Assembly: GCF_000332195.1 (NCBI RefSeq) | Contig: NZ_KB235922.1 | Location: forward strand, 5,429,322 to 5,493,321 | DNA from: Pleurocapsa sp. PCC 7319 | GTDB taxonomy: Bacteria > Cyanobacteriota > Cyanobacteriia > Cyanobacteriales > Xenococcaceae | Direction: 5' to 3' | DNA: 64,000 bases | Shown: positions 28,180 to 34,617 of the stretch, piece after piece | How positions within the stretch are numbered: position 1 is the first letter of the stretch | Layout: each line of letters begins with the position of its first letter | Made by a program: the position numbers and the translations under genes | Notes under the pieces: model-generated | Told to the model about the DNA's origin: nothing | What the model saw: the letters and a program-made list of their open reading frames with translations, nothing else | Database searches by the model: none

Positions 28180-28327
28180 CTGAAGGACGCTACGCGCCCG
28201 AAAAAGAAAATGAGAAACTGGGTAGGCAGTCCTGATCCCCTAAGAGAGGTATTTTAGCATCAAGACCGAAGCGACAATGGTGTGAAAGCGCCCGATCATC
28301 AGCCTGGTTCCTGGGAGAGAGAAATAG
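28180..28327. other. GC-richer non-coding block, possible structured RNA or leader
   Basis: About 150 bases that stand out from the AT-rich spacers by G/C content and several short complementary blocks. It lies directly upstream of the glycosyltransferase start, on whose transcript it would be a leader. No known riboswitch or small-RNA signature could be recognised. Confidence 0.3.
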
Positions 28328-28368
28328 AAAAAAAGCGATCGCTCAATAAACTTTTCTAAGCGATCGCT
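28328..28368 (-). terminator. Terminator after hcp built from two HIP1 palindromes
   Basis: Read on the minus strand, AGCGATCGCT (28359-28368) and a second AGCGATCGCT (28334-28343) flank a 15-base loop and are followed by seven T residues. Position is 61 bases beyond the hcp stop. Each arm is itself a self-complementary HIP1 core. Confidence 0.75.
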
Positions 28369-28428: not shown

Positions 28429-30078
28429 TTAGCCCAAACAAGCTGCTAAATCGGCATCAGGAGTAGTAATGGGTTGCAAGTTGTATTTCTCTGATAAAAG
28501 CTGCAAGACATTAGCTGAGAGAAAAGCGGGAATTGTCGGTCCCAGACGAATGTCTTTAATTCCTAGATAAAGTAAAGTTAGTAATACAGCAACAGCTTTT
28601 TGTTCGTACCAAGAAAGAATCATTGATAAGGGAATTTCGTTAACTCCTACCTTAAAAGCATTAGCCAAAGCGACTGCAATTTGTATTGCGGAATAAGCAT
28701 CGTTACACTGTCCTACATCTAGCAGGCGAGGTATACCTTCGATATCACCCATTTCTTTGTCAAAGAAACGGAATTTACCGCAGGCAAGGGTCAACACTAC
28801 ACAATCATCAGGTACTTTATCGACGAATTCAGCATAGTAATTACGGTCTGGTTTTGCCCCATCACAGCCACCCACTAAGAAGAAGTGGCGTATTTTACCT
28901 TGTTTGACAGCATCAATCACTCTATCGGCGACTCCTAAAACAGCATTGCGAGCAAAACCTGTAGTAACCTGGCGATATTCTGATTCTTCACTAAATCCTG
29001 GTAATTCTTGCGCTTTTTTAATTACAGGGGTAAAGTCTATACTGTCATCTGCTTTTGTAGGGAGATAATTCAAACCAGCATACCCCACAGGTCCTAAAGT
29101 AAATAGTTTATCTTCATAATGTTCGTGAGGGGGCATGAGGCAGTTAGTAGTAATTACAACTGCGCCAGGAAATTTAGCAAAGTCCTTAGTTTGGTTTTGC
29201 CAAGCAGTACCAAAATGTCCGTAGAAATGAGGATATTTTGCTTTAAGTTTGGGATAACCATGAGCGGGTAATAATTCTCCATGAGTATATACGGTAATCT
29301 CTTTATCTACAGTCTGCTTGAGGATCGCTTCTAACTGCTTAATATCATGTCCCGAAACTAAAATCGCCTTACCTGGTGTATGATTCAAAGGAACGGCAGT
29401 AGGTACGGGATGACCATAAGTGCCAGTATGCCCAGCATCGATTAATTCCATGGCTCTTAGGTTGATTTTGCCGATCTCCAGAGCCAAGTTCACCCATTCT
29501 TCTAGACTCAAATCCTGACTGTCGATAGTAGCTAATACCTGCTGAACAAATTGATATACAGTCTCGTCTTCCTGACCTAATTCATAGGCATGGAAAGTAT
29601 AGGAAGCCGCCCCCTTAACACCATAGAGAGCAGTCAGTTTAAGAGAAAAGATATCTACATTGGCTCCCGACTGACCGATTAATTCTAAATTAAAATTTTG
29701 TCCCTGCTCGACCAGGCTTTCATTGTAATCTGGTTCATAGCTCGATATTGCCGACCAAGTAATAGGCGTGTCCACTACTTGCTGAATTTGAGCTTTTAAA
29801 TCTTCTCTGAGGGCGATCGCTTGTTTAATATATTTAGTAAATCTTTTCTGATCAAAGTTGACATTAGTCATAGTTGCAAACAAAGATTCGCAGGTAAAGC
29901 GATCAACCTCTCTAGTGTTGATCGCCAATTCTTTCGCCTGAAGCACCACAGGGGCAATTCCTCGCAAACAATAGACTAATAAATCTTGTACCGCATTTAC
30001 TTGAGGACTTTTACCGCAAGCACCCCATTGATGACAGCCATTTCCGCTAGCAGTTTGTTCACATTGTTCGCAAAACAT
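28429..30078 (-). CDS. hcp: Hybrid cluster protein / hydroxylamine reductase
   Basis: 549 residues. The N-terminal cysteines C3, C6, C15 and C21 in CEQCEQTASGNGCHQWGACG bind the cubane cluster. Ligands of the hybrid 4Fe-2S-2O cluster are recognisable in SGHDIKQLE, HGELLPAHGYP, TTNCLMPPHE, VGGCDGAKPDR and LACGKFRF. Known activities of the family are NO reduction, hydroxylamine reduction and protein S-nitrosylation. Usually an NADH oxidoreductase (Hcr) is adjacent; here the upstream partners are a cupin-globin fusion (118 bases away) and a methyltransferase on the same strand. Confidence 0.96.
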   Translation of the reverse strand: MFCEQCEQTASGNGCHQWGACGKSPQVNAVQDLLVYCLRGIAPVVLQAKELAINTREVDRFTCESLFATMTNVNFDQKRFTKYIKQAIALREDLKAQIQQVVDTPITWSAISSYEPDYNESLVEQGQNFNLELIGQSGANVDIFSLKLTALYGVKGAASYTFHAYELGQEDETVYQFVQQVLATIDSQDLSLEEWVNLALEIGKINLRAMELIDAGHTGTYGHPVPTAVPLNHTPGKAILVSGHDIKQLEAILKQTVDKEITVYTHGELLPAHGYPKLKAKYPHFYGHFGTAWQNQTKDFAKFPGAVVITTNCLMPPHEHYEDKLFTLGPVGYAGLNYLPTKADDSIDFTPVIKKAQELPGFSEESEYRQVTTGFARNAVLGVADRVIDAVKQGKIRHFFLVGGCDGAKPDRNYYAEFVDKVPDDCVVLTLACGKFRFFDKEMGDIEGIPRLLDVGQCNDAYSAIQIAVALANAFKVGVNEIPLSMILSWYEQKAVAVLLTLLYLGIKDIRLGPTIPAFLSANVLQLLSEKYNLQPITTPDADLAACLG

Positions 30079-30196
30079 AATTTATTTCTCCGAAGTTAAA
30101 AGTCAAGGAAGGTAACAATTAGCCATTAGCCCTTCGGGTTCAGCACTTTGCTCAAGTCGGGGAACCCGCCCAACGCAAGTGCTTCACCATTAGCTA

Positions 30197-30985
30197 TTAG
30201 CTATTAACAGTTTGATATATTTGTTGTTCTCGATTAATAAACACATCAGCTAATACTTTGTAGGCTTCAGCCCAAGCGGTCATAACTTCTTCTGTTGCGT
30301 CATCACCTAAAACTTCTTTGATTGCTTGCAATAAACATTCCCCCACTATGGGATATTGTTCTGGTAAAACGTTGGTTTTTACGTGACGATGGGCAATTTT
30401 TTCTACCATTGCTTTTAATGCTTCGAGATCGTCAATATGAATCGCATAGCTATAGACGGCAGTAGCAAGTTTAGCTGGTTGAGAACCATTAGCTTGGGCA
30501 GACATATCAAATTGTGCTTTCACTTCTGGATATTTGTGAAACATAATTTCGTACATCCGAGTAGTAATTGTTTTACCGTGTTTTCTAAGAATAGGAGCGG
30601 TAAATTTGATGATATTAATAGTTTTTTGGTTGATTTTCTTTTTTTCTGGAGAATGTTCTGATAAAGCGAGAACAAATGCTAGATTTTGCTGGGCTTGTAC
30701 TGCGTGAGGTGCATTTGCGGGCATAAACACAAATACCCCTGGAGAGAGAGCAATATCTTGCCCTTCTAAATTGAGATTTCCTGTACCTTCCACCACAGTT
30801 ACGACAGCGTTACGGGTAGAAGTGTGTTCGTCGATTTCTGTCCCTGCTGCCAAACAAAACAAACTATATTGGCTGTTATTATCTTTGAGTAAAACTTTAC
30901 TGAGAATGCCACTGGTCGGATATTCAATTAAATCCTGCAAAGTAGCAGTAAATGAATTGTTAGATGATGCAACTGAGGTATTCAT
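30197..30985 (-). CDS. Cupin-globin fusion protein (flavohaemoglobin-type globin without reductase)
   Basis: 262 residues. Residues about 15-110 form a small cupin with candidate metal ligands His 54 (IDEHTSTR), Glu 66 and His 94 (NAPHAV). Residues about 117-258 are a globin closely following the Hmp flavohaemoglobin haem domain. Comparison by eye gives B10 Tyr 145, E7 Gln 169, proximal His 201, Tyr 211 and Glu 253, matching Tyr29, Gln53, His85, Tyr95 and Glu135 of E. coli Hmp, all known to matter for NO dioxygenation. The FAD/NAD reductase part is absent. The neighbour hcp supports a role in nitrogen-oxide chemistry. The cupin's ligand is unknown. Confidence 0.88.
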   Translation of the reverse strand: MNTSVASSNNSFTATLQDLIEYPTSGILSKVLLKDNNSQYSLFCLAAGTEIDEHTSTRNAVVTVVEGTGNLNLEGQDIALSPGVFVFMPANAPHAVQAQQNLAFVLALSEHSPEKKKINQKTINIIKFTAPILRKHGKTITTRMYEIMFHKYPEVKAQFDMSAQANGSQPAKLATAVYSYAIHIDDLEALKAMVEKIAHRHVKTNVLPEQYPIVGECLLQAIKEVLGDDATEEVMTAWAEAYKVLADVFINREQQIYQTVNS

Positions 30986-31107
30986 AACTTTACAGACTCG
31001 TATTTATTTAATCTGTAGGGTGAACGGCGGTTTTTCCCTACCAATGAACAATTCAAAGACGTAAAATTTAGTGTCTCTAATTAAGGACGGGCGTAAGGCT
31101 TGTGCCC

Positions 31108-31881
31108 CTACGTAACTTTTGCCCAAAAAACGATGTAGCCGATACGATCGCGCTGCTCTTGAAAAGTGCGACGCATTTGTAAGACTCTTTGACGCAAATT
31201 GGAATTAAATAAAATATTCCAGACAATTTTGACAGTTCCTAACAAACCTTCATCCCGCACCATCTGACCTAAATTAAGCAATCCCATCTCATCTGCTTTC
31301 CATTGCTGCACATTTAAACCCGCCTCTCTACAAGCTGATTCCCATTCTTCGAGTGTTAAAGGATTAGCATTAACCCGAATTGTTTGAGATAGACTTTTAC
31401 GTACTTCCCACTCATTACTGCGAACAAGCATTTCATGGGAAAGAAACTTACCCCCAGGCTGAAGATGGTATTTAATTGCCGACAATATCTTGGATTTACC
31501 TACATCAGATTGCATAGTTAGGATGGCTTCAGCCAAGACATAATCAAACTTGTCTGTAATCTTATCTAACTGAAAGATATCTCCCTCAATAATTGTCACC
31601 CGATCTTGTAAACCAGCCGCCTTAATCTTTTCCTGAGCTTTGGCTACGCTATCTGGGTTTTTCTCAACTCCCACCACGCGGACGTTAAATCTTTTGGCTA
31701 ATGCGATCGCGCTTTCCCCAAAGCTAGCTGCCAATTCTAATACAGTATCTCCTGGTTGGAAATCAGCCCAAGTAAACAGTTGTTCTGTGGCAGCTTTTCC
31801 TCCAGGGCGCAATATCTTCTTTCCTGCCGCTGCTAGTACTTGATGACCAGGGGCAGTAGCAAAATTGAGAGTGGCTGTCAT
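31108..31881 (-). CDS. Class I SAM-dependent methyltransferase
   Basis: 257 residues. The SAM-binding core is VLELAASFGESAIALAK near residue 42 (a slightly atypical glycine loop), the acidic strand end VVGVEKNP, and IIEGDIFQL. The C-terminal part holds a helical substrate region. It is first in a same-strand series with the cupin-globin gene (122 bases) and hcp. The substrate is not evident. Small-molecule or quinone-type methylation is possible. Confidence 0.85.
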   Translation of the reverse strand: MTATLNFATAPGHQVLAAAGKKILRPGGKAATEQLFTWADFQPGDTVLELAASFGESAIALAKRFNVRVVGVEKNPDSVAKAQEKIKAAGLQDRVTIIEGDIFQLDKITDKFDYVLAEAILTMQSDVGKSKILSAIKYHLQPGGKFLSHEMLVRSNEWEVRKSLSQTIRVNANPLTLEEWESACREAGLNVQQWKADEMGLLNLGQMVRDEGLLGTVKIVWNILFNSNLRQRVLQMRRTFQEQRDRIGYIVFWAKVT

Positions 31882-32178
31882 GAGTCATATCCAAAGTCGA
31901 TACTCTTACTCTGACATTAAGTTCGAGTCTCGTCTTTGAGGTAGCTCATGTTTAGAGGTAAAGTTTTGTGTGTTTTTTTTGTTGGATGTAAAAAGTGCGA
32001 TCCCCTCTCAAAATTCATGAAATGTAATTGTTTTTTTTGAATCGAGAGGGCTTCTGACTCCTCTAGCACCGAGATTCAAGACATGAGTAATTCCTAAAAT
32101 CATGGTGTTATCCCTCATGACTATCGGATAATGCTTTGTATGATGAAATTAGACTGGACTTATACATTTGAATTAATA
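31882..32178. other. Intergenic DNA before the accessory island
   Basis: About 300 bases between the methyltransferase start and the proposed left boundary of the restriction-modification cassette. It should contain the promoter of the methyltransferase-globin-hcp series. No ORF or clear repeat seen. Confidence 0.4.
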
Positions 32179-32185
32179 GTTAGCT
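32179..32185 (+). other. Candidate left boundary of the restriction-modification cassette (GTTAGCT)
   Basis: GTTAGCT lies 59 bases before the endonuclease ATG. It is the exact reverse complement of AGCTAAC at 34529-34535, the outer arm of the attC-like site at the other end. In integron cassettes the first bases of the cassette match that arm in this way. Confidence 0.4.
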
Positions 32186-32243
32186 ACCCATAAGGTGATA
32201 ATTAGGCACAATAAGCTAAAAAAGAAAATTATTAGGATTTTTG

Positions 32244-33266
32244 ATGCAATATAATCGAGATATTGACGATTTAGAGAATAATGCTGTTTTATGGTGGCCT
32301 GAACACCTTAATGAAATGAATGCCGCAATCAGTGTTATCCCAAAATTATTAAAGACACAGGATGATTTCCTTAAAATCATTTCGTTGTCAAAAAACTCAC
32401 CTTTTCAAGTATTTGATGTAATTTCTGCTTCGAGATTTCCAGCAAATTTGTTCTTAAAACATCTATGTGTATTAGCAGATTATGGAGGTGAGCCTATTCA
32501 GCGTTTAGGCAGGTCGTTTGAATCAGTTTTTCAGTCCAAAAATGATGAGTATGTTATTGATTTTATTTGGAACTCAAAAAATTACCAGTATATCTTTAAG
32601 TCACTTCCTGTTCGTGGGCTAGGAAACAAAAAGCTATTTATTGACGGCGATGGACTAATAGAGAAAAAAGAGCTTTCAGATGTATACAAGGATATGATTG
32701 TATTGTTAATGTTTGGCTCAACATCAACAGTTAGTGAAGAAGCGGGTCTGGCAGCATGTGAAATTGGAACATTACTTGGAAAAGCTGAAATACTAGAAAA
32801 GTATGTAAAAGAACGCTACATAAATGTGAGCAGAATAACTGGTGGAGCAACAGCCAATTCATTAGGGCAGTTAGCACAAAAAGAAGTTGTTAATTTTCTT
32901 TCACTCTCTCTTGGACAAGATTATACTGTCTCAAGCAATGGATATATAGAACTAGATGGGTACAACAAAGATGGTGGGATGCCTTTTGATGTGGTTGTAG
33001 AAAAAGGAAATAAAAAAATCGGTATCGAAATTAGTTTTCAAGTAACAACGAATAGCACAATTGAGCGTAAATCTGGACAAGCAGCAGATCGAATGAAGTT
33101 AATGCACTCAAATGGATACAAAATCGCGTATATCTTAGATGGAGCCGGTAATTTTCAAAGAAGGTCAGCAGTATCAACAATCTGTAGAAATAGTGATTGC
33201 ACTGTGGCTTACACAGATAGCGAGTTTTCAGTATTATCAAAATGGATAGGTGAAGAGCTTGATTAA
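32244..33266 (+). CDS. Probable type II restriction endonuclease
   Basis: 340 residues from the ATG at 32244, behind TAGGA. A TTG one codon upstream is less likely. No close family was recognised by eye. The C-terminal third contains MPFDVVVE, then KKIGIEISFQV, an acidic-hydrophobic-E-x-S pattern that fits a PD-(D/E)XK-like nuclease core. The gene overlaps the downstream C5 methyltransferase by 17 bases, the usual organisation of a type II system. The DNA is more AT-rich than the flanking genes to the right. The recognition site is unknown. Function is inferred chiefly from context. Confidence 0.75.
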   Translation: MQYNRDIDDLENNAVLWWPEHLNEMNAAISVIPKLLKTQDDFLKIISLSKNSPFQVFDVISASRFPANLFLKHLCVLADYGGEPIQRLGRSFESVFQSKNDEYVIDFIWNSKNYQYIFKSLPVRGLGNKKLFIDGDGLIEKKELSDVYKDMIVLLMFGSTSTVSEEAGLAACEIGTLLGKAEILEKYVKERYINVSRITGGATANSLGQLAQKEVVNFLSLSLGQDYTVSSNGYIELDGYNKDGGMPFDVVVEKGNKKIGIEISFQVTTNSTIERKSGQAADRMKLMHSNGYKIAYILDGAGNFQRRSAVSTICRNSDCTVAYTDSEFSVLSKWIGEELD

Positions 33267-34617
33267 ATTTATTGACTTATTTGCTGGTACAGGTGGCATA
33301 CGTTTGGCTCTAGAACAGGCTTGTAGTGATTTTGGTATTGAAACAGAATGTGTATATAGCTCTGAAATTGATAAAAATGCATGTCTGTCTTATGAGTTAA
33401 ATTTTGGAGTTAATCCCTATTCTGATATTACTAAAGTTAATGAATTTCCAGATTTTAATTTCTTGTTAGCTGGTTTTCCTTGCCAAGCATTTTCTTATGC
33501 AGGTAAGCGTAAGGGATTTGGCGATACAAGAGGAACATTATTTTTTGATGTAGAAAGAATATTAAAACAAAAAAAACCAAACTATTTTCTGCTAGAAAAT
33601 GTAAGGGGGTTAGTTACGCATGATAAAGGTCGAACATTTAAAACGATAAAAGACAGCCTTGAGAGTATTGGTTATTCAGTTAGCTATTTGCTTCTTAACT
33701 CAAGTAATTTTGATGTGCCGCAAAATAGAGTCAGAATTTATATTGTCGGCGTTCTGAATCAACCTGTTAAATTAACACTTAACAGCGACCTTGGGGCTGC
33801 TGACACTCATAAATTCAAAAAAAAATCGAAATATATACAAATATCTTTATTCGGCGAAGAACAAGAAAAAGCTGTTACCGTAAGAGATATTCTAGAATCA
33901 GATCCAGATCAAAAGTATAATTGTTCTCTTGATTTTGTTGAAAAATTAAGAAAAGTAGTTGGAAATGATTTTACGAATTTACATGGCTATAGATTGATAG
34001 ATTATAGAGGTGGCAAATCTTTACACTCATGGGAGCTTGGTGTAAAAGGTGACTGTACTCCACAAGAAGTGGAATTCATGAATTTACTTATCTCAAATCG
34101 AAGAAAAAAGATATTTGGAACGCATCAAGATGGAAAAAGTTTGACAAAGGAACAAATATTAACCTTTTACCATGAAAATGATTTCTCTAAAGTAACAAAA
34201 TCATTGATAAATAAAGGATATTTAAGCTGTTATGACAATAAATACAACCCTGTTTGCGGCAATATGTCTTTTGAGGTTTTTAAATTTCTTGATCCTGATG
34301 GAATATCAATCACACTTACTGCATCAGATGCAAATAGATTAGGTGTTGTACAAAATAATATCCCAAGACGCATAACTCCAAGAGAATGCGCAAGATTACA
34401 GGGGTATCCAGATACGTATAAATTACTAGATAATGATAATGCTGTTTATAAACAAATGGGGAATGGGGTATCAGTTCCTGTTGTCAAAGCAGTTTTGAGC
34501 AATTTCATCGAGCACAATTACGCACAGCAGCTAACAAAAGCAACCAGCGGACAGTCAAAAGCTTACCGCTCGTTATTCGGTATACAGCTTCTTCCTGCCG
34601 CTGATGCAATGCGTTAA
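33250..34617 (+). CDS. DNA (cytosine-5) methyltransferase
   Basis: 455 residues from a GTG start inside the endonuclease gene. C5-methylase motifs appear in order: FIDLFAGTGGIRLAL (I), GFPCQAFSYAGKRKGFGD with the catalytic Cys (IV), FLLENVRGL (VI), QNRVRIYIVG (VIII), RRITPRECARLQGYP (IX region) and YKQMGNGVSVPVV (X). The target-recognition region lies about 190-340. The last 25-30 residues are encoded by the attC-like sequence at the 3' end, and the stop codon lies in its terminal GTTAA, so the coding frame runs through the recombination site. It protects host DNA against the upstream nuclease. Confidence 0.95.
   Translation: MKSLIKFIDLFAGTGGIRLALEQACSDFGIETECVYSSEIDKNACLSYELNFGVNPYSDITKVNEFPDFNFLLAGFPCQAFSYAGKRKGFGDTRGTLFFDVERILKQKKPNYFLLENVRGLVTHDKGRTFKTIKDSLESIGYSVSYLLLNSSNFDVPQNRVRIYIVGVLNQPVKLTLNSDLGAADTHKFKKKSKYIQISLFGEEQEKAVTVRDILESDPDQKYNCSLDFVEKLRKVVGNDFTNLHGYRLIDYRGGKSLHSWELGVKGDCTPQEVEFMNLLISNRRKKIFGTHQDGKSLTKEQILTFYHENDFSKVTKSLINKGYLSCYDNKYNPVCGNMSFEVFKFLDPDGISITLTASDANRLGVVQNNIPRRITPRECARLQGYPDTYKLLDNDNAVYKQMGNGVSVPVVKAVLSNFIEHNYAQQLTKATSGQSKAYRSLFGIQLLPAADAMR

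Follow-up and report, generated by a model that had tools for sequence, protein, structure and literature searches.

We analysed a 64,000-nucleotide stretch, here called the window, of the 7.39 Mb genome of Pleurocapsa sp. PCC 7319, in which one gene joins a cupin to a flavohaemoglobin (FHb)-type globin and lies between the genes for a class I S-adenosylmethionine-dependent methyltransferase (MT) and for the hybrid cluster protein Hcp. The open reading frames (ORFs) bear out this arrangement, which a preliminary description of the window had stated, and all three are on the minus strand. Judged from sequence, these genes probably constitute a nitrosative-stress operon in which a reductase-less globin that would detoxify nitric oxide (NO) has been joined to a co-regulated cupin. 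The strongest evidence for such an operon is the recurrence of a palindrome at related loci, together with a regulator of the CRP/FNR family.

A recurring palindrome and its candidate regulator

Exact gapped palindromes were searched in the 300 bp preceding 27 MT genes, whose loci are related and hence do not count as 27 independent events. TATGA-N6-TCATA was found before 7 of these genes and ATGAG-N4-CTCAT before 5, compared with 3 or fewer in 20 shuffles, while the merged palindrome TATGAGnnnnCTCATA, allowing up to 2 mismatches, preceded 23 of the 27, mostly at about 70 bp from the MT start, as opposed to 1.3% in Markov-shuffled sequence. It has the TGA-N6-TCA spacing that characterises CRP/FNR sites. 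The same spacing is also present in HcpR and HcpR1 sites, as given in the available text of the corresponding papers (PMC1274295, PMC5701242).

Neighbourhoods were compared across three groups of loci, with about 6 kb fetched on either side and less at contig ends; the resulting counts are lower bounds. These groups comprised 29 fusion loci (28 plus the G305 locus, L048), 22 cupin-only loci from well over 100 cupin-only matches (including L166, the G531 locus, and the broken L167) and 18 stand-alone globin loci, 13 of them close relatives of the fusion globin and 5 distant. Scoring palindromes with up to 2 mismatches from −130 to +450 bp of the start of the first gene (the MT or, failing that, the fusion), we found one at 25 of the 29 fusion loci, more than 200 bp away in three of them (L144, L156, L162); those without it are L143, L161, L163, where it precedes the regulator, and L164. 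Cupin-only loci carry it in 16 of 22 cases and stand-alone globin loci in 8 of 18, corresponding to 8/13 close relatives and 0/5 distant ones, and it also stands before unlinked hcp genes (L194, L195), hcp in L040 and norB (L206, L207). The palindrome is a steadier element than the three-gene neighbourhood.

The exact core TGAGSTASCTCA is rare and occurs exactly once in 13 of 42 genomes, nearly all of which had been chosen for a cupin or fusion. This single site precedes a gene of the set in 11 of the 13 and lies inside another gene in G600 and G629. The gene is an MT in 7 of the 11, a partly circular result since those MT genes served motif discovery; the other 4, outside the discovery set, are a member of the uncharacterised C4 family described below (G336), hcp (G523), norB (G093) and fusion/regulator (G535). 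Further core sites precede the regulator gene (L050, L062, L071), a cytochrome b561 gene (L045), C4 genes (L072, L105) and a gene of a second uncharacterised family of about 154 amino acids (L074). It is the position of the sites and not their number that serves as evidence, because a control pattern, the palindrome read backwards, matched as many as 11 times within a single genome (G535). The window genome contains four exact core sites, the operator before MT being the only one outside an ORF, and the three within ORFs are likely due to chance. Five core sites were examined in site-rich genomes (G360, G429, G486, G505, G543): L100, L213, L214 and L215 lie inside ORFs, and L233 lies more than 300 bp before two other ORFs.

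Two observations on the palindrome stand apart from these genes. It lies 66 bp before the start of a gene in L099 whose product we take to be an OsmC-like protein, and in L063-L066 and L177 it is found between a stand-alone globin gene and a divergent gene of the RPE65-type carotenoid oxygenase family.

A CRP/FNR-family regulator gene lies beside 17 of the 29 fusions (the regulator of L161, from another clade, is excluded), and its recognition helix mostly reads GITYEECVRL, with the Cys present in 32 of 33 sequences. In a quick tree the clade of these YEECVR regulators was separate (support of 100 in the Shimodaira-Hasegawa-like approximate likelihood ratio test) from 8 regulators designated HcpR-type by their place and helix (PETLSR or PATLSR; that of L202 is cut before the helix) and not by comparison with published HcpR sequences. 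The window genome has one YEECVR copy, at C7:3830893, which is 83% identical to that of L041 and unlinked, 1.6 Mb from the window. This copy (L094:5864-8607) stands beside two ORFs that are presumably transposase-like.

HcpR sites of the form TTGACnnnnGTCAA at cyanobacterial hcp and norB have been published, according to the available part of PMC1274295. Eight of 20 hcp or norB loci hold an HcpR-type regulator and the HcpR site is present at all eight, which agrees with that source and provides a positive control. No HcpR-type site with up to 2 mismatches was found at 31881-32241 and none with up to 1 mismatch in the 300 bp before MT, and we rejected the assignment of the window operon to the HcpR regulon; over the whole window, this pattern at 2 mismatches occurs more often than in shuffled sequence (52 matches vs a mean of 32.4), none of them before MT. 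Locus L161 (G600), in contrast, has the other-clade regulator, a perfect TTGACnnnnGTCAA, hcp and then the fusion 72 bp on, so the fusion there sits behind a site type already tied in print to NO genes. An HcpR-like site with one mismatch also precedes the cupin-only MT genes of L085 and L087.

Compared with the cyanobacterial HcpR system, as far as the available text of PMC1274295 describes it, the one studied here has overlapping target genes, the same spacing and a regulator of the same family, but differs in its TGAG half-site, its YEECVR helix and its separate clade. Since hcp and norB occur behind either kind of site, two CRP-family regulators may act in parallel on cyanobacterial NO genes. 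We did not find a second cyanobacterial NO regulon besides HcpR described, the palindrome itself not having been searched in print.

The cupin-globin protein

Pfam recognised two domains in the fusion, Cupin_2 at residues 42-99 (E 3.6e-10) and Globin at residues 143-248 (E 1e-17), both above the gathering score. The best PDB relatives of the globin part are Vitreoscilla haemoglobin (VHb; 1vhb, E 3.9e-38) and the flavohaemoproteins 3ozu and 1cqx, and the alignment spans residues 118-258, ending where the reductase would start. This part covers only residues 2-143 of the 399-residue NCBIfam flavohaemoprotein model (197 bits vs a cut-off of 432) and, because the match ends there, the C-terminal FAD/NAD(P)H reductase domain of Hmp is absent from the fusion, as had been proposed. 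Tyr145, Phe159, Gln169, Leu173, His201, Tyr211 and Glu253 are conserved in 29/29 fusions; five of them, already named at these positions in the preliminary description, correspond to the Tyr B10, Gln E7, His F8, Tyr G5 and Glu H23 of FHb-type globins. An AlphaFold2 (AF2) model of the whole fusion had a mean predicted local distance difference test score (pLDDT) of 60, with a poor cupin half, and its globin half matched VHb (E 1.6e-10), in agreement with an intact haem pocket.

The globin therefore resembles VHb and the globin domain of Hmp in sequence, fold and the five pocket residues, but it has no reductase, which sets it apart from Hmp, and carries an added N-terminal cupin in frame, which sets it apart from single-domain FHb-type globins such as VHb and Campylobacter Cgb (2wy4), reductase-less as well. 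Cgb is controlled by the CRP/FNR-family regulator NssR, according to the available text of PMC3820574; it has no cupin, and its likeness to the present system is one of globin and regulator family, the NssR site not having been compared. In the accessible part of PMC6104048, the nitric oxide synthase of Synechococcus PCC 7335 carries an N-terminal globin, and is thus another cyanobacterial globin joined to a further domain in NO metabolism, although its partner is the synthase and the model of its globin used 3S1I, a different bacterial globin, as template. Reductase-less FHb-type globins under CRP/FNR-family control and a globin joined to NO synthase in cyanobacteria are thus known already. 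No cupin-globin fusion appeared in the titles and abstract openings returned by our literature search, whose coverage left out most subscription journals, and the fusion would represent a new domain architecture among haemoglobins that may handle NO.

The best PDB match of the cupin part is the cupin 3rns (E 2.8e-18). When the cupin was modelled alone with AF2, at a mean pLDDT of only 62, its best fold matches were cupins (1yhf, 2ozj and others; E 1.7e-6), with template modelling scores of 0.66-0.71 for the first six, which together with the Pfam match supports a Cupin_2 beta-barrel. The usual cupin metal motif is HxH...E...H. Only His54 and His94 are kept here, the second His and the Glu being missing, and these two residues and Cys44 are invariant in all 54 cupin domains compared, of which 29 are fused, 23 are stand-alone domains from cyanobacteria and 2 are archaeal. 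The invariant Cys44, His54 and His94 may serve to bind a metal or some small molecule. The small cupins 3rns and 1yhf match this domain in fold and sequence and have His at both His positions in the printed alignments, but Ser at that of Cys44 and no fused globin; the title of 1yhf gives its function as unknown.

One chain with two ligand-binding domains could also work as a sensor or regulator, in which haem would bind NO or O2 and alter the action or binding of the cupin in the manner of a globin-coupled sensor, and the cupin half does have a weak AraC_binding match, below the cut-off. We consider this very unlikely, given that the pocket residues are those of catalytic FHbs, that Pfam and NCBIfam scans found no DNA-binding or enzymatic output domain in the fusion and that cupin and globin also occur as separate genes.

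Distribution, gene partners and origin of the fusion

Among 388 genomes sampled from the order, 27 carry a gene that matches over both domains, with 29 such genes in total (63-100% identity); among 386 genomes sampled from the phylum the number is 4, and the window's genome is included in both samples. A scan of named species, partly the same assemblies, returned 22 loci, 13 of which span both domains (one with a broken frame), all 13 cyanobacterial. The fusion is thus not a one-off event.

The gene partners are less constant. A full-length MT adjoins the fusion in 16 of the 29 loci and hcp lies inside the fetched stretch in 9, and we rejected the MT/fusion/hcp set as a conserved unit. Of the earlier interpretation, a fixed three-gene nitrogen-oxide system, what stands is the recurrent reductase-less fusion with intact FHb-type pocket residues and with hcp near some fusions, to which the present analysis adds a palindrome that the fusion shares with some hcp and norB genes; the trio itself was not supported. 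Short MT remnants remain in L043, L050 and, by eye, L040, with the palindrome retained. The 22 cupin-only loci contain a full-length MT next to the cupin in 17, the regulator in 16, C4 in 8, norB in 4 and hcp in 1. By genome, hcp was found in 15/27 fusion and 6/19 cupin-only genomes (one partial, G172; p 0.14, not significant) and norB in 1/27 and 7/19, respectively (one partial, G207; Fisher p 0.0055, without correction for kinship), a pattern that would fit the replacement of a reductive NO sink by an O2-dependent one in fusion genomes.

The frequency of the MT-cupin pair, seen in those 17 of 22 cupin-only loci, and the weak similarity of the MT to small-molecule methyltransferases, among others, would fit a small-molecule pathway in which the cupin, as an oxygenase or isomerase, would use O2 or a globin-handled product, with only an indirect link to NO. 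This explanation seems distinctly unlikely to us, as we saw no full-length MT next to 13 of the 29 fusions (some of these loci being cut by contig ends) and the metal motif of the cupin is incomplete.

Members of the C4 family, of about 160 amino acids (L071, L072, L077, L079, L080, L083, L085, L086), follow the cupin or lie behind a palindrome of their own, and two that were scanned had no Pfam or NCBIfam match. The family of about 154 amino acids is found before hcp (L049:5528-5989) and with its own palindrome (L074:5973-6440); its L049 member had no Pfam or NCBIfam match either.

In G531 the cupin and the globin are encoded by neighbouring but separate genes with hcp next in line, and in G068 the two are unlinked, the only two exact core sites of that genome being those before MT-cupin and before the globin. 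That the two are joined or split under one kind of operator argues for a joint action of the domains or, at the least, for an action against a shared stress. A single origin of the fusion was rejected, since the cupin tree does not admit one fusion clade (approximately unbiased test, p 0.011; several branches are long). The fewest changes between fused and separate states were 6 for the cupin tree (bootstrap 5-7) and 8 for the globin tree (bootstrap 7-9). When only well-supported branches are considered, no more than 1 and 3 changes, respectively, are required, and gain is indistinguishable from loss.

A proposed NO response and the window locus

In the nitrosative-stress operon that we propose, a CRP/FNR-family regulator would bind TGAG-N4-CTCA 69 bp before MT, presumably with NO as signal, and switch on MT, cupin-globin and Hcp, the three window genes probably forming one transcript. 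The globin domain would bind O2 and oxidise NO to nitrate and, because the fusion has no reductase of its own, would regain its reduced state through a ferredoxin or flavin reductase encoded separately, by analogy with the FHb/VHb family in both respects. At low O2, Hcp would reduce NO. The cupin, usual partner of MT in the same gene set, may have become fused to the globin owing to their action against a common stress, and the shared operator makes the roles of this cupin family and of the MT testable.

Several observations weigh against this proposal. Its partners are loose, with no hcp match in 12 of the 27 fusion genomes and no norB match in 26, and the regulator lies away from the window operon and outside the HcpR-type clade. 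Upstream of the 20 hcp or norB genes (13 hcp, 7 norB), the TGAG palindrome (up to 2 mismatches) was found at 4, TTGACnnnnGTCAA (up to 1) at 9 and neither at 7. The G638 fusion (L164) has no palindrome, MT, hcp or regulator nearby, and its genome has no exact core site. O2 or redox are other possible signals, and enzymatic NO dioxygenation cannot be concluded from the protection that a single-domain globin gives, as noted in the available text of PMC3820574.

We also weighed a regulon that answers low O2 or redox, whose globin would deliver or store O2 or reduce hydroxylamine or nitrite instead of detoxifying NO, and regard it as rather unlikely. O2 delivery or storage has been proposed for VHb, the closest relative by sequence and fold, CRP/FNR proteins also sense O2, and the NCBIfam name of Hcp is hydroxylamine reductase. 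FNR carries a set of N-terminal Cys, however, and the regulator here has no conserved set of that kind among its listed Cys positions. While hydroxylamine reduction has been suggested for cyanobacterial haemoglobins (PMC3820574, available text), the same palindrome at norB points to NO, and one fusion, with hcp, lies behind an HcpR-type site.

Taken further, the nitrosative-stress operon could belong to a second cyanobacterial NO regulon besides HcpR, in which a CRP/FNR-family factor reads TGAG-N4-CTCA, perhaps senses NO or redox through its recognition-helix Cys, and controls MT, cupin, globin, hcp, norB and the two uncharacterised families, with the Cys44/His54/His94 site working directly with the globin haem in a two-site NO-handling enzyme of new architecture. 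This combined picture is possible, but we hold it only tentatively.

Table 1. Features of the MT-fusion-hcp locus in the window
Feature	Position	Strand	Remarks
Cupin-globin fusion, 262 aa	30197..30985	(-)	cupin at about residues 13-110, FHb/VHb-type globin at about 118-258
Class I MT, 257 aa	31108..31881	(-)	first gene of putative operon
Hcp (hcp), 549 aa	28429..30078	(-)	118 bp after fusion, same strand
Candidate operator CATGAGCTACCTCAAA	31935..31950	(-)	2 mismatches to consensus TATGAGnnnnCTCATA; 69 bp before MT start codon
Possible terminator after hcp	28327..28368	(-)	inverted repeat, then T run; read from sequence by eye

The genes of the window locus (Table 1) are separated by 122 bp (MT/fusion) and 118 bp (fusion/hcp). 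The MT matches Methyltransf_31 in Pfam (E 3.2e-15) and Hcp matches Prismane (E 1.2e-162), passing the NCBIfam hydroxylamine reductase equivalog with 785 bits vs a cut-off of 367. A terminator after hcp, also part of the preliminary description, is plausible from the letters read by eye, which at about 28368-28327 show AGCGATCGCT twice with 15 nt in between, then a T run, and a terminator scan with a loop limit of 8 listed none there.

Immediately upstream of the MT operon, at 32241-34617 on the plus strand, lie genes for a BanI-type restriction enzyme and a C5 DNA methylase. In the close relative L039 a phage-integrase gene takes their place, and because of this replacement the flank looks mobile. 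Two further places in the window genome, C7:826970-827794 and C7:4644861-4645784, each contain two distant globin-like stretches with 26-31% identity.

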